Below are positions 1-37,644 of a DNA stretch of 37,644 bases, piece by piece (position 1 is the first letter of the stretch; every line of letters starts with the position of its first letter). The translations under genes were made by a program, and so were the position numbers. The notes below the pieces were generated by a model. It saw only the letters and a program-made list of their open reading frames with translations, ran no database searches and had not been told where the DNA came from. This DNA comes from a candidate division CPR3 bacterium 4484_211 (lineage in GTDB: Bacteria > Patescibacteriota > 4484-211): the NCBI GenBank assembly GCA_002084955.1, contig MZGJ01000010.1, forward strand, positions 1-37,644, in the 5' to 3' direction.

Positions 1-119
1 AACCAAACAGAGTTTAGTGTTTGATGTCTGTTTGAGATTAGTATCAGATTGTTAAAGAGCTAAATTGTCATAAATTTTGCCTCTTGACTTTTGATAGCTA
101 GTCTCGAAAGGTTTTTTTG

Positions 120-28356: not shown

Positions 28357-28770
28357 TCAAAACAACAGCTTAAATCCTGGAGTCTGATAAAATTTTAGAT
28401 GTAGTTTTAACATTTGAGCTTTGACTTTTAAGATGTCTATATCAGCTCCATCTGTTCTATTTGTGGTTCGGCTCCTTTTGGTTGTTCTTTGTTTTTCATT
28501 ATTAACTCCCCTTTTTCCAGCGATAAAAACCTCCTTTCGCGACAGACCAATGGAGGCCAGGCTTTGTTCTAAAAGTCTGCCGGCCTGGCCAACAAATGGC
28601 CGCCCTTGTTGATCTTCGTAATATCCAGGGGCCTCTCCAATAAAAACCAAATCGGCAAAGGGATTACCTTCCCCGGGGACTGGATTGGCAGCTGCCTTAT
28701 AGAGTGAACACCTTTGGCAGGCAGAGATCTCTTGGGCAATAGAGGCAAGTTGTTGCTCGCGAGTATTCAT
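28357..28770 (-). pseudogene. Type-4 uracil-DNA glycosylase, 3'-truncated
   Basis: CQRCSLYKAAANPVPGEGNPFADLVFIGEAPGYYEDQQGRPFVGQAGRLL...VFIA then unrelated low-complexity tail GKRGVNNEKQRTTKRSRTTNR. Confidence 0.8.
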
Positions 28771-28786
28771 TTGCAATTTGCTTTTT

Positions 28787-29911
28787 TCAGATTTCCGGCT
28801 CGGGCACAAAATCCTTGTAATTTTCTTCGGTTATTCTGTAGGTTTTTGCTCCGCCGGAGACGCGCTGTCGGGCGCATTTCCTAACAATTGCTTCTACCAC
28901 ACGGGCAACTGATCTTACTCCGGCGTCGTAGCCTAGAGGGCGGACAATAATTGGCCAGACTGCCTCATCCACGACTACATCGTTTTTATCCATCCCGCTT
29001 ACCAGTAGTTGCTGGGGCAGTAAATAATCTCGGGCGATGATAATTTTCTCTTCATCGTTATAGCCGGGCATTTGAATAACTTCCATACGGTTTAAGACGG
29101 CGTTGGCAATGTTGCGGGTGTTGTTGGCACTGCAGATGAACATGACCGAGGTAAGGTCAAAAGGGTAATTGATAAAGTAGTCGGTGAAGCGGATATTTTG
29201 CTGAGGGTCAAGCAATTCCAGCAGGACGCCCATAATATCAGATCTGACCGATTCTGCAACTCGGTCAATTTCATCTAGAAGAATCACCGGATTTTTAGTT
29301 TGTGCCTGACGCAGAGCTTTAATAATGGCTCCGGGTTCAGCCGTCCGCTCGGTGGCAGGATTGCCTCTTAGCTGGGAAGCGCTGCCCATGCCGCCCATGG
29401 GGATGCGGACAAATTTTCGGTTTAAGGCTTTTGCAATGGAGTGGACAATAGAAGTCTTGCCAACACCGGGCAGACCGACAAAAAGGAGAACAGGGGCTCT
29501 GCCAATGCCTCTTTGATAAAGGTCCTCTAGGGCCTTTTTGTGTTCGGGCCGTTTTTCTGCTTCATTCTGCAGGGCTAAAACAGCAATATACTCTAAAATT
29601 CTTTCTTTAACCACCTGTAAAGAATGGTGGGTGGAGTCTAAAATTTCCTGAGCTTTCTCTAGATCCAAATTGTCTTGGGAAACGGTATTCCAGGGCAGAT
29701 TAGTAATCCAGTCAATGTACCTTACCGTATCGTCCAGAGCCGCATGATACTGAGGAGATTTTATAAGGCGCTGCAGACTAACGATCAACTGTTCTGTTTT
29801 TTCCAAAAGGTTCGGGGGCAAACTTGCTTTACTAACCTGCTGGTAGAGTTGCTGCAGCTCAGAGGGAAGCTTTTGTATATCTGGTTGGGTATCCTTGGAG
29901 GAAGTATCCAT
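28787..29911 (-). CDS. Lon-like AAA+ ATPase lacking LON substrate-binding and protease domains
   Basis: LLFVGLPGVGKTSIVHSIAKAL, ILLDEIDRVAES, FICSANNTRNIANAVLNRMEVIQMPGY; ORF ends soon after the ATPase module. Confidence 0.88.
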   Translation of the reverse strand: MDTSSKDTQPDIQKLPSELQQLYQQVSKASLPPNLLEKTEQLIVSLQRLIKSPQYHAALDDTVRYIDWITNLPWNTVSQDNLDLEKAQEILDSTHHSLQVVKERILEYIAVLALQNEAEKRPEHKKALEDLYQRGIGRAPVLLFVGLPGVGKTSIVHSIAKALNRKFVRIPMGGMGSASQLRGNPATERTAEPGAIIKALRQAQTKNPVILLDEIDRVAESVRSDIMGVLLELLDPQQNIRFTDYFINYPFDLTSVMFICSANNTRNIANAVLNRMEVIQMPGYNDEEKIIIARDYLLPQQLLVSGMDKNDVVVDEAVWPIIVRPLGYDAGVRSVARVVEAIVRKCARQRVSGGAKTYRITEENYKDFVPEPEI

Positions 29912-29962
29912 ATGGGGCTTGTGTAGTTTTTAATATGGCTGGGACATAAATGTCTAGAATCG

Positions 29963-30019
29963 TTGTAGTAGCGCAATTTATTGCGCGCTCTTCGCGCGGA
30001 CTAAAGTCCGCTATTACAG
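29963..30019. repeat. REP-like element with three consecutive short hairpins
   Basis: TTGTAGTAGCGCAATTTATTGCGCGCTCTTCGCGCGGACTAAAGTCCGCTATTACAGG: GCGCAA/TTGCGC, GCGCG/CGCGC, CGGAC/GTCCG. Confidence 0.75.
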
Positions 30020-30059
30020 GCGAAACAGGGAATTATGGTTCAAAATTCAAGAGTCTGGA

Positions 30060-31850
30060 TTACACTTTCTTTGTAACTAAAACTTCTTCTCCTAACATGT
30101 CAATGATTTTAACCGCCACTTTGGTTTTCTTTTTAGGTATTTCAAGTTCATATTCACCTTTGACTAAATCGTTATTCTTTTCTGGCACATCTGAGTAAGC
30201 AATTCTAAACACTTCTCCATTATAATCGGTATCAACTAGCACCACATCAATCATTGACCTAAAGTCTGGGATTTTCTTTCTCAAAAGCCCTGGTTCTAGC
30301 TCCAAGCGCTTGATAATAGTGGGCGAGATAAAGGATTTGATTTTAATCTTAACTTTATTTTTACCCTTCCTTTTAATCTCAACCTCTGCCTTAGACGGCT
30401 CGTAGCTGACAAAATTCTTGTCTTTGAGATCAAAGATAATAAACTGCTTGATTCTTTGCTTGGTTCTGGTATCTTTATAAGGCTGTTTTTTATTCCATTC
30501 TTCAACCCAGGCATCTACTTTTGTTTCTCTTCCTAGACAAATAACTATTACATTTCTGTCTTCATCGGGTCGTTTGTTTAGTTCGTCAACGATAAGCTGA
30601 AGGTCGAGCAAGGTGAGCGGGTGGTTAAAGTCTATAATTTTTACCAGCTCATTAGAGTCTCTAGTGCCGTCAAAGAACGGGTCGGTTTTTGTAGAAGTAA
30701 TACCATATTGCTGGATTGCCAATTCTTTAGCCTCGGTGTGCAAAATCTTCAAATCGTAATTGTTAACTTTGTAAATAGCAAAGGTAGGATATTTCTCATT
30801 TTTGCCCTGATCTTTGATTATCTTTTGAATTCTCTTACTGGTAACTTGAATTGCTCCCTTATTTACATCTACACCAATCCACCGTCTGCCAAGTGCTTGT
30901 GCGGCTACACAAGTTGTTCCAGAACCGACGAAGCAGTCCAATACCAGGCCGTCACTTTCTGCTGAAGCCTTAATGATTCTTTCAAGTAATGTTTCTGGTT
31001 TCTGAGTGGTATAACTTGTCTTTTCAAGTGCGTTTCCCTGGACAGGGTTAATATCACTCCAGACATCTCCTGGGTTTTTACCAGACTTTTCAAGATCTTC
31101 TGCCTCAACTTCATATCTTGCTTCACCTCTCTTTGCTCTGGCTATTGTTTCTGGATTATACGGAACTCTAACAGGGTCTAGGTTGAATTGATACTTATTG
31201 CTTTTTGAGTAAAAAAGAATGTTTTGATGTTTCCTTCCCCATCTTTCTGTCCCACTTGCCCCCATGTAGTAATTCCAGATTAAATCGTTTTGAAGATTGT
31301 CTTCTCCAAAAACTTCGTCCATCAATACTTTAAGGTAATGAACCATTCGGTAATCTAAGTGGACATAAATGCTTCCTGTTTCTGCCAGTAATTCTTTAAG
31401 CAAAATAAGCCTCTCGTACATAAATTGAAAATACTCGTCTCTTTTCCAAATATCCTCGTACATTGTTTGCTGGATGATTGATTCGCTGTCTTCTTCCATT
31501 CTTCCTAAATCTTTCAATCCTCTAAGCTCAACCTTTCGCACATAATCTTTATTGCTGGCAAATGGCGGATCAATATAAACCAGGTCAATTTTACCTCTAA
31601 ATCCTAGTTCAAGAAGAGTGGCTAATACTTCTTTATTGTCTCCATGAAATAGAAGGTTGTGCCAATTTTTCTCCAAGCCATCATATACTGGTGTTTTAAG
31701 CGCGTGATTCTTGCTTTGTGGATCAAAACATTCAATTAACTGTGTGGGGTAGCCTTGAACATGTTCTAAGGGATGTTTACCAACCCAATTAAGCAAAGGT
31801 CTGCCTTTTGGTGTTTGAATTTTAATTGTTTTTTTCTTTTTTTCTGCCAT
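30060..31850 (-). CDS. DNA methyltransferase, type III Mod-like
   Basis: LVYIDPPFASNKDY (DPPF) precedes VLDCFVGSGTTCVAAQALGRRWIGVD; TQKPETLLERI. Confidence 0.93.
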   Translation of the reverse strand: MAEKKKKTIKIQTPKGRPLLNWVGKHPLEHVQGYPTQLIECFDPQSKNHALKTPVYDGLEKNWHNLLFHGDNKEVLATLLELGFRGKIDLVYIDPPFASNKDYVRKVELRGLKDLGRMEEDSESIIQQTMYEDIWKRDEYFQFMYERLILLKELLAETGSIYVHLDYRMVHYLKVLMDEVFGEDNLQNDLIWNYYMGASGTERWGRKHQNILFYSKSNKYQFNLDPVRVPYNPETIARAKRGEARYEVEAEDLEKSGKNPGDVWSDINPVQGNALEKTSYTTQKPETLLERIIKASAESDGLVLDCFVGSGTTCVAAQALGRRWIGVDVNKGAIQVTSKRIQKIIKDQGKNEKYPTFAIYKVNNYDLKILHTEAKELAIQQYGITSTKTDPFFDGTRDSNELVKIIDFNHPLTLLDLQLIVDELNKRPDEDRNVIVICLGRETKVDAWVEEWNKKQPYKDTRTKQRIKQFIIFDLKDKNFVSYEPSKAEVEIKRKGKNKVKIKIKSFISPTIIKRLELEPGLLRKKIPDFRSMIDVVLVDTDYNGEVFRIAYSDVPEKNNDLVKGEYELEIPKKKTKVAVKIIDMLGEEVLVTKKV

Positions 31851-31854
31851 ATAT

Positions 31855-33312
31855 TTATATTAACAAAAAATATTTAAGCGGAACTTTAACAATTTTACCT
31901 TCTATGCCGAGATTACTGCCAGAAATTACCAAACCGTAATCTCCTTTGATTTTCTCAAGTGTCGTTTGAGCTTGTTTTACTCCTTTGTTTCCGTAGCCCA
32001 CCTCAATAGCAATTTTCTTATTTGATAATTTCAGAATAAAATCTGCTCCTCCTTTAGCACTATCATAAAAAGTAGGCGAGGCTAGTTTTTGATTAAATTC
32101 TCGATATAAAGTCAGAGCAATAATATCCTCCAGATATTTTCCTTTATGCTTTCCAAAGGCGCTTTCTCCTTCAACAATGGTTAAAAGTGTGTGCCTGACA
32201 GCGGGCGTCATAAAATGATATTTTGAAGGCTTGCGCACCTTTTTGTAGGTTGAACCATAAGGATAAACCCGAATTAACATCTCCGCCTTTTCCAGGGCTT
32301 CCAGTACATTAATAAGAGTAACCATAGAGATACTCTTCAAGGTGTTAGCTAGACTAGTAATACTTAGCTCGCTGCTTCCTGATACCAACAAAAGAATATT
32401 TTTTATCATTGCCAGGGTGTTAGAATCAAACTTACCCAGCTCAGGTAAGTCTTTTTCAACGATCTTGTCTATTTGTTGATTAGTCAAAATATGAACCCTT
32501 TGTTCGTCCTTAATAGTTAAGGCGTAAGGCATTGTGCCAAATCTTAAATATTTATCAATTTCTAAACTATCTATTCCTAACCAATATTTTCTTACTTGGT
32601 TTTCTAAATCCTTTAAGTTTAAAAAACATTGGTTGGCGTCATGACTATAAAAAAGCACATTTTTTACTGAGTTTTTTAATCCTTTGATCGGAAACTTAAT
32701 TTCTACGGCATTATTCCTGGAAGACTCATATTTAGTCTTAAGCAAGATATATTCGGTAAAGTTCATCGGATATAATCTTTCAAAAATGACCCGCCTGGCT
32801 AAATCGGTTGTTGATTGGAGCGATAAAGCTGAAGAGCCTGTGCAGATGACAAAAACTCTTTTTGATTTGTCATAGAGACTTTTAAGTGCCGCTGCCCATT
32901 TTTTGTCAAAATGGATTTCGTCAATAAAGATAAATAAATCACGGTCTAGTTTTTCAAAACTAGTGCTGAGAATTTTCTGATATTCTTCAAAAACCGAATA
33001 TAAATCCGAGCGAAACTCATTCACTACCTGATCAGCAGAAATGTAAAGCATGTTTTCCGAGTGATGGGGAAAGAGTTTAAGGAATAATTGAGCTAGTAAA
33101 GTTGTTTTTCCTACTCCACGCAAGCCAGGAATGCTTACAATTCTAACTTCCTTCTGTCCATCAATAAAATCTTTTATCAATTTTTCTACTCGAATAAACA
33201 TGTTCCTTGCTAGATATTTGTTGCCCTGTTCATCCTGAGCATATGTTTTAAGCAAAGCAGGAGAACGACTTAATTGATTTTGGAGATATTGGTTAATTAG
33301 TAAACGATTCAT
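31855..33312 (-). CDS. AAA ATPase with DUF4143-like C-terminal domain
   Basis: IPGLRGVGKTTLLAQLFLKL (Walker A), LFIFIDEIHFDKKW (Walker B), CTGSSALSL; C-terminal GGADFILKLSNKKIAIEVG. Confidence 0.87.
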   Translation of the reverse strand: MNRLLINQYLQNQLSRSPALLKTYAQDEQGNKYLARNMFIRVEKLIKDFIDGQKEVRIVSIPGLRGVGKTTLLAQLFLKLFPHHSENMLYISADQVVNEFRSDLYSVFEEYQKILSTSFEKLDRDLFIFIDEIHFDKKWAAALKSLYDKSKRVFVICTGSSALSLQSTTDLARRVIFERLYPMNFTEYILLKTKYESSRNNAVEIKFPIKGLKNSVKNVLFYSHDANQCFLNLKDLENQVRKYWLGIDSLEIDKYLRFGTMPYALTIKDEQRVHILTNQQIDKIVEKDLPELGKFDSNTLAMIKNILLLVSGSSELSITSLANTLKSISMVTLINVLEALEKAEMLIRVYPYGSTYKKVRKPSKYHFMTPAVRHTLLTIVEGESAFGKHKGKYLEDIIALTLYREFNQKLASPTFYDSAKGGADFILKLSNKKIAIEVGYGNKGVKQAQTTLEKIKGDYGLVISGSNLGIEGKIVKVPLKYFLLI

Positions 33313-33348
33313 AATTTGTATATTAATCCACTATTATAGTAATGCTGG

Positions 33349-33376
33349 TTTCTATTATAGTCGACTATAATAGAAA
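33349..33376. promoter_or_regulatory. 28-bp perfect palindrome, predicted operator
   Basis: TTTCTATTATAGTCGACTATAATAGAAA; contains TATAAT on both strands; related CTATTATAGT at 33331-33340. Confidence 0.7.
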
Positions 33377-33425
33377 ATCAAATGCTGATTATTTCCTGTA
33401 ATATCGGTATTTTTTAAGTTAATTT

Positions 33426-36005
33426 CTATTTTCTTTTATAAATCCAGTTAATCACTGGGGTTACTTTGCCAAAGATTGACTCTCCTTCTTCAAGTAGAAG
33501 AAGTTCGTATTTTAGTTTGTTGGGATTGATTTTCTCCAATTTCCTCATTTCCTTCTCAGCTGCTTCATTACGATAAGGTTTTCCTTTGACTTCGACAATA
33601 AGTGATTTGCCATTTTTCTTGCGGATTAAAAAGTCAGGAGTGTAATTATGCCATCCCCCTTTTTCGTCTTTATATTCAAAAACAAAGTCGGTTTTCTCCC
33701 TGTCTGTTAAAGCGCCAGTGTAATAAATGTCCTCAATATCATCAGGGTCTTCTCCTAGTTTAGCCATCATCCGTTCGAAGAAAACTCTTTCATCTTCAGA
33801 GTCAAAATTATAAGGAGTATAGTGGAAGCCAAACAAAGGCATTTGCCCTGACTTCTTTTTGTAATCATCAAGGGGTAAAATATAACCCTTTAATTTGTCC
33901 CGCTTGACCCTAATGGTTGTTACCAGGACTGATTTGCCGTCTTGCTTTTCTTTTTCAAACCCTTCTTTTTTAACTAAAGCCAGCGCTTCTTCTACAGTCT
34001 CACTGATTACCTTGTAGTTGACAACTTGTCTCTCTAACTGCTCCCTAATTAGCTCAAACTCTGCTACAGACATATCTTTGCCTGCATAAAGCTCTGAAAG
34101 TAGCTTAAAGAGCCTAAGAGAGTCTAACCTGTAGGCTTGCGCCAATATGACGGCTGCGGTGTATAAATCAACGATCTTTGCTCCAGATGATAATTCTTCT
34201 TGTCCGACCTCAATTAAAACCCGTTTGCTTTGCCCTTTGGAGAGATCATAAAGAACTTTTGTTTGTTTTTTAATTTCTTTGACTTTGGGCTTGCTTAGTT
34301 TTAATTCTTCTTTTTTCTTTTCTTCGCTTGGTATAAACTTTTGAATGACCTTTTTAATTACCAAAGGTTCAATGTTTATCTTTCTTAAAGTGACATTAAG
34401 TGATAAAACATCTGTTTCTGCCCGATTAATGTCCTCTAGGCTTTCTCCATAGGTTTCTTGAAGTTGTTTATCAAGAGTCGAAACATTATCTCCTGATAAG
34501 TAAATCTTGGCTTTTTTGGTGTTGTTAGGAACTTGGCGCAAGCAGCGACTGGCTGCCTGTAAAACAAAGTTATTGCTGGATTTTAATTTCCTTGCCAGAG
34601 CAGTGGCAAATAAAGAAGGGCAGTTCCAACCTTCAGTGCCTTTATTCACCAGCAAGAAGATTCTGTATGGCAATTTAGGATCATTAACCCGATTATCAAA
34701 TAAATCTTTGATTTCGGGTTTTGATTTGTGGTGAACAGGAAGAATTACTGAAGGGTCAATCCCAAGTGAGACAAGAGTTTGCTCTACGACTGGTTTACTC
34801 TTGTCCAAGTCTTTCCTTTGAGGAAAGTAAATAGCCAGCTTTGCCTTGCTGCCGTCATTGGTTTTAACCTGTTTGTAATTTTCAAAAAAGTCTTTGACCA
34901 CATCAATGATAAAGTCCTTATCAGTAACTTTGTCATAGGCCATAATGTTATTTTTGACATCCTTGAGTATCCCGTCTTCTATCCCTTGAGACAATCCATA
35001 CCAACAGACTACATCTCTTAGAAGCTGTCTTTTGTAATAAGGAGTGCCTGTGGTGTTTACTACCACCATTAGGTTTGTTTTTTCGCTGATATAGTTAATT
35101 GTCTGACGAACCCTTTTTAAACCTTTTTCTAACTTTTGCCCGTAGGTGTGATGGGCTTCATCTGAGAATACTGCCAAATGGGGAAGAGAAGTAATTGTTT
35201 GTAGTCGCAGATTAGCAATCAGTTTTTTTGCCTCCTCCATGCCCAGGCTTAGCTGTCCGTGGATATAAGACTTGGGAATAGAACCTTTTTGCAGTCTGAT
35301 CTTTTCAGTGTTGGTGACAATGACATTAAAACTACTGCCTCTTATAACAGGAATGTCTTTTTCTCCATCTCTGGTATAAGTGAACTTAACATTGGTGATA
35401 AAAAATTTGTAAAAGCGCTTAGGGAGTATTTTGTCGTAGGGAGTCTCTGAGATTTCCCGCAGTGCCCCAAGAATTGTTTTTCCTGGGGCAAACACTAGAG
35501 CATTCTTAACAAAGCCGTTTTCCTCGTTGTATTCCAGCGCCATCGCAAACTCAGTAGCGATGATTGAGGCTATAAGAATAGTCTTGCCTGCTCCCATTGC
35601 CAGAGCAAGAATGTAGCTGGGATATTCTAAATTTAGAGTTTCCCGTAAGCCTTGAAGTTTATATCTTTTTACAAAATCGTCATCTTTTCTAACCTTATCG
35701 ATTATCGACTTTAATCCTCCTCCACTGAGAGCGATTTCTTCTAAATCTTCTTTAGATAGTCTTATTCCTAATGCTTCCAATAGTTCCTTGCCATCAAAGT
35801 ATTCCTTGTAGAGATCGAAGATGTGGGGCGTCTTCTTGATTAAGCGTAAATACCAGTAAGTTTCTAGGGCTTCAAGCTGGGCTTTTCTCAAAAAGCTATT
35901 TTGATTGTATTTCAGGATGGTTGAGATGATTGGGTAGTCGCAAGGGTAATCTTGTTTTCTCCATTCGAGCGTTTCTAGTTTTAATTTTTGGTAAAGATTG
36001 GTCAT
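33426..36005 (-). CDS. Type III restriction endonuclease Res subunit (SF2 helicase plus nuclease)
   Basis: GAGKTILIASIIATEFA, VFSDEAHHTYGQ, TGTPYY, QAASRCLRQV; C-terminal TPDFLIRKKNGKSLIVEVKGK. Confidence 0.92.
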   Translation of the reverse strand: MTNLYQKLKLETLEWRKQDYPCDYPIISTILKYNQNSFLRKAQLEALETYWYLRLIKKTPHIFDLYKEYFDGKELLEALGIRLSKEDLEEIALSGGGLKSIIDKVRKDDDFVKRYKLQGLRETLNLEYPSYILALAMGAGKTILIASIIATEFAMALEYNEENGFVKNALVFAPGKTILGALREISETPYDKILPKRFYKFFITNVKFTYTRDGEKDIPVIRGSSFNVIVTNTEKIRLQKGSIPKSYIHGQLSLGMEEAKKLIANLRLQTITSLPHLAVFSDEAHHTYGQKLEKGLKRVRQTINYISEKTNLMVVVNTTGTPYYKRQLLRDVVCWYGLSQGIEDGILKDVKNNIMAYDKVTDKDFIIDVVKDFFENYKQVKTNDGSKAKLAIYFPQRKDLDKSKPVVEQTLVSLGIDPSVILPVHHKSKPEIKDLFDNRVNDPKLPYRIFLLVNKGTEGWNCPSLFATALARKLKSSNNFVLQAASRCLRQVPNNTKKAKIYLSGDNVSTLDKQLQETYGESLEDINRAETDVLSLNVTLRKINIEPLVIKKVIQKFIPSEEKKKEELKLSKPKVKEIKKQTKVLYDLSKGQSKRVLIEVGQEELSSGAKIVDLYTAAVILAQAYRLDSLRLFKLLSELYAGKDMSVAEFELIREQLERQVVNYKVISETVEEALALVKKEGFEKEKQDGKSVLVTTIRVKRDKLKGYILPLDDYKKKSGQMPLFGFHYTPYNFDSEDERVFFERMMAKLGEDPDDIEDIYYTGALTDREKTDFVFEYKDEKGGWHNYTPDFLIRKKNGKSLIVEVKGKPYRNEAAEKEMRKLEKINPNKLKYELLLLEEGESIFGKVTPVINWIYKRK

Positions 36006-36045
36006 GTTTTATTTTTGCTTTTTAATAAATTCCTTGTAACCAAAA

Positions 36046-37278
36046 TTAGTCGGTTGGGATATCGAAAACTAACACTGTTACAATTAACTCTCGCTCCCTA
36101 TCATTTTTATGATGCATAGCAAACCTAAATCCAGTTTCGGAATTGTAATCCACTTTTCTGACAAAGTTTGGATGAGCCTCAATGATTGCAGGAATTTGCG
36201 ACAACACTCCACTTGTATTTTTATTTCTATTAAAAATTAGAATTGATGTTTTTGTATCTCTCCAGGAAGTATAACCCAGTAGTTGATCGACAGCTTTCTT
36301 GAAGTATTCTTCGCCTCTCCAGAATTTACATTCGGCAATGAAAATGTTTTTATTGTCAACTCTTATCAAAATGTCTGTTTTGCCACCTGCATTAAAAGTT
36401 TCTCCCGTAGCTTGCCCTTCGTATTGCCCATTTAATTGGACTAGGAAATGTGTTCTTAAATCCTCTTCCTCCATGTTTACAAATGCCTTGGGGCTTCGCT
36501 CCATTACAGTGACCATATTAGAAATTATCTGGAGAATATGCTCATATTCTGCTATCTCTACGGTAGGTTCGGGTTTGGAAGGGGACATTGTAGGTTCTGG
36601 CATACGAGGAACAATCTTCCTTTTCACTTCTGGAACAACATAGGTTTGTGGAGCATTCTCCCGTTTCCGTATTGGAAAGCCAAAAGAAGCAGCTAAACCC
36701 TGATCGTTCTTTACTTTCTCTCTTCTAGAGTTAATCCTTGCTCTTATTTTATCTTCTATTTGACTATTGAATTCTGCGACTCCATTTTTGATATTGGTTA
36801 AATAGCTTTTAATACTATTTAACCTTCCTTCAAACGAGGATTTGATTTCTTCGCTTTTGTGTTTTGTTGTTTGGAAGGTAAGGATTAAATCTGTTTCAGT
36901 AACAACGCCTCTTGGGGGATTGAGTGTATAAGTAGAAGGTTTGCAGTTGAACAGGTCTTTATCGCCCTCATAGGGAATATAAAAATCAACTTTTGTGCCA
37001 GTAATGTAAAAAGGTTTGCTTTTATCCCAGATAAGACGATTGGGGTCACCACTAACATCTATTTGAGACTCTTCTTGGCCAACTGTAATTTTATCCTCAT
37101 GCAGCTGGGGGGCTAGTAAAAGATATTTTTCTTTGAAGTAATTAACTAATTTTTCAACATCTGTATTTAGTAGTTTATTTCCATTGATGTCATCAATTTC
37201 ATCGTTCATTGCTTTCTCGTGCGCCTCAATAACTCTGCGTAGATCATATTTAATAAAAAGATAGTCGTTGCTTCTCAT
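36046..37278 (-). CDS. PD-(D/E)XK nuclease-like protein of unknown function, RM-linked
   Basis: C-terminal GGKTDILIRVDNKNIFIAECKFWRGEEYFKKAVDQLLGYTSWRDTKTSILIFNRNK (D...ExK pattern). Confidence 0.75.
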   Translation of the reverse strand: MRSNDYLFIKYDLRRVIEAHEKAMNDEIDDINGNKLLNTDVEKLVNYFKEKYLLLAPQLHEDKITVGQEESQIDVSGDPNRLIWDKSKPFYITGTKVDFYIPYEGDKDLFNCKPSTYTLNPPRGVVTETDLILTFQTTKHKSEEIKSSFEGRLNSIKSYLTNIKNGVAEFNSQIEDKIRARINSRREKVKNDQGLAASFGFPIRKRENAPQTYVVPEVKRKIVPRMPEPTMSPSKPEPTVEIAEYEHILQIISNMVTVMERSPKAFVNMEEEDLRTHFLVQLNGQYEGQATGETFNAGGKTDILIRVDNKNIFIAECKFWRGEEYFKKAVDQLLGYTSWRDTKTSILIFNRNKNTSGVLSQIPAIIEAHPNFVRKVDYNSETGFRFAMHHKNDRERELIVTVLVFDIPTD

Positions 37279-37280
37279 GT

Positions 37281-37478
37281 TTATTTTTTCCTTTTAAGAA
37301 TTGCCTCAATATCTTTAGGATCATAGCGCCTGTCACCGCGCTCATTTACGATGATGGCCTTTAGCTTTCCACTTTTGTCCCAACGCCTCAGTGTCTCGAC
37401 ATGCACATTCAGAACCTCAGCAGCCTGCCTGATCGTTAGTAGTTTTGGTAACTCCGCGAGTTCTAAAAACGACTGCAA
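37281..37478 (-). CDS. Excisionase/MerR-type HTH DNA-binding protein
   Basis: LLTIRQAAEVLNVHVETLRRWDKSGKLKAIIVNERGDRRYDPKDIEAIL; stop lies 2 nt before the next gene's start; true start uncertain. Confidence 0.82.
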   Translation of the reverse strand: MQSFLELAELPKLLTIRQAAEVLNVHVETLRRWDKSGKLKAIIVNERGDRRYDPKDIEAILKRKK

Positions 37479-37535: not shown

Positions 37536-37644
37536 ATGAATAATTATAGCAAGATTAATCGAAAAGAGCGCGAGTTACTCGAAGAGTGGAAAAGGGAAGG
37601 GCTATCCAACAAAGAATGTGCCCGCAGACTAAGGCGATCTCCCT
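37536..37644 (+). mobile_element. IS30-family transposase, 5' portion (runs off the window)
   Basis: MNNYSKINRKERELLEEWKREGLSNKECARRLRRSP resembles the N-terminal HTH of IS30 transposases; preceded by GATGAACAC...GTGTTCATC inverted repeat (37499-37535). Confidence 0.72.

Follow-up and report, generated by a model that had tools for sequence, protein, structure and literature searches.

A type III restriction-modification operon with two probable guest defence genes in a Patescibacteria genome

Five co-oriented genes of a Patescibacteria genome, encoding a small helix-turn-helix (HTH) protein, a 410 amino acid protein, Res, an AAA ATPase and Mod, raise the question whether they work as one composite defence machine or represent a type III restriction-modification (RM) operon which has taken up unrelated genes. 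A first-pass annotation had offered both readings, an extended type III system with an additional effector and regulator or the nested acquisition of defence units, and had regarded the set as the best candidate for an undescribed system in the window, by which we mean the whole stretch of DNA analysed (37,644 nt, corresponding to the entire contig C22 of an 826 kb genome, 99.85% complete). The data presented here make it highly probable that the locus is a type III RM operon composed of HTH, Res and Mod, and that two unrelated single-gene defence candidates occupy two of its junctions which tolerate insertions.

Layout and boundaries of the locus

The open reading frame check recovered all five genes where the first-pass annotation had placed them, in the minus strand order HTH, 410-aa protein, Res, ATPase and Mod (Table 1), and the domain searches agreed with their labels (HTH, PD-(D/E)XK protein, Res, AAA ATPase, Mod), adding the assignment of the 410-aa protein to PDC-S54 and of the ATPase to PDC-S01. 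The intergenic gaps are 2 nt between the HTH gene and the 410-aa gene, 40 nt between the latter and res, 113 nt between res and the ATPase gene and 4 nt between the ATPase gene and mod. Catalytic motifs are intact in all four enzymes, except that the nuclease-like domain of the ATPase has ExG where ExK would be usual.

Table 1. Features of the RM operon and of its flanks (positions in the window).
Feature	Position	Strand	Description
HTH, MerR/excisionase-type, RM core gene 1	37281..37478	-	65 aa, TTG start; HTH_17 2.2e-11, mad1 8e-12
PDC-S54 protein, 410 aa, guest in the HTH/Res slot	36046..37278	-	PADLOC PDLC05036 1e-161
Putative insertion scar, 27-nt imperfect copy of the HTH-gene 3' end (37280-37306)	36008..36034	-	22/27 identical
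Res, SF2 helicase with C-terminal PD-(D/E)XK, divergent type III-like	33426..36005	-	859 aa; ResIII 4.8e-7
Perfect 28-nt palindrome over TTGATT-16-TATAAT promoter, operator-like, 5' of the ATPase gene	33349..33376	.	
AAA_14 ATPase with C-terminal PD-(D/E)XK-like domain, PDC-S01, guest in the Res/Mod slot	31855..33312	-	485 aa
Mod, beta-class adenine methyltransferase, type III kind	30060..31850	-	596 aa; MTase_III 9.9e-69
REP-like hairpin element, boundary on the 3' side	29934..30037	.	DNA fold z = -4.0 vs shuffles
IS30 transposase gene start, cut by the contig end	37536..37644	+	HTH_38 1.5e-6

The REP hairpin and the IS30 element, between which the set had been said to lie, were both recovered. 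The 104-nt hairpin element recurs identically on contigs C18 and C29 of this genome and in diverged form across the same family, and represents a REP-like family specific to this lineage. The IS30 element is represented by the first 36 aa of its transposase, since the contig ends at position 37644; a search of this genome for a second copy, which would mark its boundary, found none. Adjoining the RM operon on the hairpin side is a Lon-type AAA ATPase gene (28787-29911), whose reading frame contains the lid domain and lacks the protease domain and which has DNA relatives within the same family. The neighbouring uracil-DNA glycosylase gene (28357-28809) looks truncated, as its profile match ends at position 53 of 141, after which the frame runs on in unrelated sequence of low-complexity appearance.

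The restriction-modification core

Res contains the helicase motifs GAGKT, DEAHH, TGTP and QAASRCLRQ and a C-terminal nuclease of the PD...EVK type (PDFLI-x10-EVK), a complete set of the motifs expected of a type III Res; the domain searches recognise a ResIII and a TnsA-like nuclease domain (3.4e-6). The match to the PADLOC REase_III model is weak (E 0.007) and no PDB chain was matched up to an E value of 10. Mod is recognised both by N6_N4_Mtase (3.5e-54) and through its profile, which matches Mod of EcoP15I (4zcf chain A) at 2.3e-31; its motifs follow in the order DPPF, FVGSGTT. From homology and intact motifs, Mod would mark the host DNA and Res would cut DNA not so marked. Type III enzymes methylate a single strand of a short asymmetric site, and for cleavage they require two unmethylated sites that are oppositely oriented. 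The MADS system (mad1-8) was rejected, as the HTH protein is the only good match, to mad1, besides a weak mad8 match of the ATPase (0.0056).

A scan of 84,980 species genomes yielded 80 Res loci, a sample which is uneven, with many Poribacteria, and in which cargo reading frames derive from a simple ORF caller. The closest operon relatives are from Woesebacteria, that is from Patescibacteria, and five Woesebacteria/Microgenomates relatives retain the core at 70-86% identity (Res 70-73%), none of them with the 410-aa protein or the ATPase. The locus of G136, from the same phylum, reads HTH (86%), Res (71%), DUF3800, Mod (77%) (L050); the others read HTH-Res-284aa-Mod (L051), HTH-220aa-Res-Mod with a HEPN-like 220-aa protein (L049), Res-DUF3800-Mod (L052), and HTH-Res with a two-ORF transposase interrupting Res near its end (L053, 8001-11200). 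The HTH gene comes first in four of these five loci (L049, L050, L051 and L053), encoding a protein 81-86% identical to that of the window. Profile HMMs detected relatives of PDC-S54 and of the ATPase in none of the 80 Res loci. Since close relatives keep HTH, Res and Mod with other additional genes or none, and without either guest, these three genes are the core of the operon, and the HTH protein, whose reading as such was correct, belongs to this core and not to the 410-aa gene. In one further locus (L097, 3-10136) the Res match lies inside a single open frame 3379 codons long, which may encode a giant fusion protein.

By analogy with RptR of the E. coli type I RM island, the HTH protein is most likely a repressor or modulator of the RM promoter. 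A -10-like box, resembling TATAAT in L051 and L020, is found just 5' of the ATG of the HTH gene in L051, L053 and L020, while in the window the gene starts with TTG, the first nine residues are unlike those of the relatives, and the corresponding promoter region consists of IS30 DNA. The native start and promoter of the HTH gene have probably been replaced by the end of the IS30 element, and the native RM promoter may have been lost or replaced. In L020 (4826-9777, genome G007) a 78% identical HTH protein heads genes for a 1262-aa nSTAND-like protein, a DNA methyltransferase and a putative nuclease, so that a regulator like that of the window is present on another RM-like operon.

Two junctions and their probable guests

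While mod and res are parted by the ATPase gene in the window, they touch or overlap in many relatives, and in most guest-free loci the gap ranges from -38 to +62 nt. Gaps of at least 700 nt are present in 24 of the 43 loci where res comes first and in 2 of the 22 where mod does (Fisher p = 3.6e-4), or 11 of 25 and 2 of 22 when Poribacteria are excluded (p = 0.01), both p-values being a guide only because the loci are related to each other. The cargo of the junction consists mostly of known or candidate defence families, including DUF3800, an OLD/GajA-like ATPase, DUF6978 with DUF1828/1829 (PDC-M24), TIR-TPR proteins like ThsB and a TIR-like effector; in L054 mod itself is interrupted by a YhcG-type PD-(D/E)XK protein (PDC-S02). 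Another recurrent guest is possibly a pair of TcmP-like (three-Cys-motif partner) and radical-SAM-like proteins, identified by eye, which comes after S54 in L017 (10627-12562), a type III locus of Patescibacteria, and after Res in an Altiarchaeales locus (L060, 2717-4600).

The 410-aa protein is a full length PDC-S54 (residues 1-408 on positions 1-407 of 410), matching no Pfam family. Family alignments show the invariant residues E293, D302, E316-x-K318 and Q332. The structure model (pLDDT 80 for the whole protein, 90 for the C-domain) comprises an N-terminal domain, a 58-residue helix (142-199), a disordered linker and a C-terminal domain with predicted secondary structure agreeing with PD-(D/E)XK. 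When the models, including the confident C-terminal one, were searched against PDB and BFVD, no fold was matched significantly, the best weak matches being nucleotidyltransferases and an archaeal repair endonuclease (2vld, E 0.08); the nuclease assignment thus rests on motifs and secondary structure. The family is scattered over Nostoc, Thauera, Rhizobium, Paludisphaera, Streptomyces, haloarchaea, Spiroplasma and viral contigs, usually as a lone gene, and PDC-S54 is not mentioned in the papers searched.

The trace which this gene appears to have left is the copy of the HTH tail located just ahead of res, after PDC-S54, repeating the 3'-terminal 27 nt of the HTH gene; it is short and AT-rich, and is the sole match of its quality in 7184 positions, the next best reaching 17/27. 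In L050 and L051 the HTH tail itself lies directly 5' of Res. These sequences are most simply explained by an entry of PDC-S54 at the HTH/Res junction, with a second copy of the HTH tail left behind. It would now be read together with the operon as an independent nuclease effector.

The ATPase had been annotated as AAA-DUF4143-like, of which the AAA part holds (AAA_14, 1.7e-28), while the DUF4143 similarity was not seen as a Pfam match; the PDC-S01 HMM covers residues 39-463 (2e-35). In the window and in the nearest relatives the nuclease-like domain reads IEVGxGxK, with the Glu retained and the Lys shifted; a canonical ExK is not known to be a requirement of the PDC-S01 family. The nine closest relatives (34-57% identity) lie mostly beside unrelated non-RM genes such as groEL and tsaD. 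In the window the gene has a predicted promoter of its own, TTGATT-16-TATAAT, overlapped by the perfect palindrome TTTCTATTATAGTCGACTATAATAGAAA. A promoter of the form TTGAnn-16..18-TAnnnT is present within 100 nt upstream of 8 of the 10 ATPase genes (window and nine relatives), most of these promoters have an overlapping dyad, and the dyads jointly exceed those of shuffled sequences (combined p 2e-7). The exact palindrome TATTATAGTNNACTATAATA occurs in the window only, among 287 genomes. A common operator sequence was rejected, since position and form of the dyad are conserved and its letters are not; the presence of strong promoters and dyads alike in form and not in sequence (L172-L180) suggests an operator specific to each ATPase. 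The promoter, the dyad and the unrelated settings of the relatives agree with a self-contained gene which represses itself, probably an independent ATPase-nuclease defence gene, whose promoter may also drive mod, starting 4 nt after the ATPase stop.

Interpretation and comparison with known systems

The co-orientation of the five genes and their mostly tiny gaps would agree with a single integrated system, in which Mod and Res of type III would be joined by a dedicated ATPase for substrate remodelling or sensing and by a dedicated second nuclease, all under control of the HTH protein, and S54 is in fact also coupled to type III RM in a second locus (G072/L017). In this distant Patescibacteria genome S54 lies at a gap of 0 nt from a distant mod/res pair (32% and 21% identity) with a broken mod, and some functional affinity of PDC-S54 with type III RM is therefore possible. 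It is however the only one of 21 other PDC-S54 loci, checked with profiles, with mod/res alongside, and the ATPase is never found with this Res elsewhere, so that the neighbourhood search did not bear out the co-occurrence with type III RM expected of an extended system. Above all, close relatives lack both additional genes or have others in their place, which largely rejects the integrated system; the absence of S54 and ATPase from the 80 Res loci, the separate promoter of the ATPase and the putative scar after S54 also stand against it, and we regard it as very improbable. Of the two readings of the first-pass annotation it is thus nested acquisition that stands, and not the type III system with an obligate extra effector. 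Nor is an undescribed system supported, since all five genes fall into families already described or catalogued.

The guests could instead be back-up effectors tied to the RM complex in the way of PrrC, the complex keeping them silent until restriction or methylation is blocked by a phage. Linkage to RM loci of type I or III is known for PrrC and for some RloC proteins, with PrrC silenced by its RM enzyme (PMC2610378), and S54 lies next to, and would be cotranscribed with, type III genes in two distant loci (window and L017). S54 and the ATPase are, however, mostly found without nearby RM genes and must therefore be able to work alone, which makes such a tie quite unlikely. A wider version, in which HTH-Res-Mod would be a regulated platform with two fixed slots, the HTH protein and the RM state controlling swappable effectors, and the guests forming a second line that is set free once the RM core fails through a block, appears to us unlikely too. 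Compatible with nested acquisition is a decaying locus, where IS30 removed the native RM promoter and only ATPase and mod are still expressed. The TTG start, the unmatched first residues of the HTH protein and the IS30 DNA in the place of the relatives' promoter point this way, and IS30 may have silenced the operon. Against it, none of the five reading frames is broken and the enzyme motifs are preserved, so that any loss of expression would be recent, and an insertion sequence can also supply a promoter; decay is possible, if rather doubtful.

We therefore favour the nested RM operon. As relatives bear different guests at the same two places, the locus appears to be a platform onto which defence genes are loaded, rather than a single machine of five parts. 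The guests would share regulation and transmission with the RM core and would not be required for its activity.

The principle of embedding is not new. That RM operons can harbour embedded defence genes is well established (PMC12988326, PMC12255303, PMC2610378), and was already known from the way the PADLOC PDC families were found, by 'guilt-by-embedding' (PMC12988326). The E. coli type I RM island has a small repressor gene first and DarTG2 embedded (PMC12255303), and RloC is present in some type I or III loci (PMC2610378). For a type III operon in which other genes part mod from res, the literature searched offered no direct precedent. What is new is the type III chassis with two occupied slots, the putative scar and the apparently self-regulated cargo. 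Embedded defence genes have so far come mainly from type I RM and Hma loci, and the divergent type III clade described here is nearly missed by common detection models. Its Res/Mod junction is filled by guests in about half of the loci in Res-Mod order, across many phyla, and lends itself to the search for new defence genes. The window appears to record both the entry of a guest, in a duplicated gene tail, and a guest bringing its own switch, in a promoter with palindrome; it also illustrates that composite 'new systems' seen in one genome can dissolve on comparison with relatives.

Compared with type III RM of the EcoP15I type, the locus shares a homologous Mod, a Res with SF2 helicase and C-terminal PD-(D/E)XK domains and co-oriented mod and res genes; it differs in a Res too diverged for good recognition by PDB or PADLOC REase_III, and in an operon headed by HTH, with res before mod and guests between the genes. 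PDC-S54, a PADLOC single-gene defence candidate, is matched over its full length with conserved catalytic residues, but the family is usually solitary, whereas the copy in the window is embedded in a type III RM operon with a putative insertion scar. PDC-S01, an ATPase fused to PD-(D/E)XK, is very common in archaea and bacteria and is reported to be the fourth most common defence candidate in prokaryotes (PMC12988326); the ATPase of the window has the AAA_14 and PD-(D/E)XK-like domains of this family, and differs in its place between res and mod and in the ExG for ExK common to its nearest relatives. A parallel in organisation is offered by the type I RM island of E. coli with RptR and DarTG2 (PMC12255303), which likewise has a small regulator as first gene and defence genes between the RM genes, whereas the operon of the window is of type III and has two separate slots.
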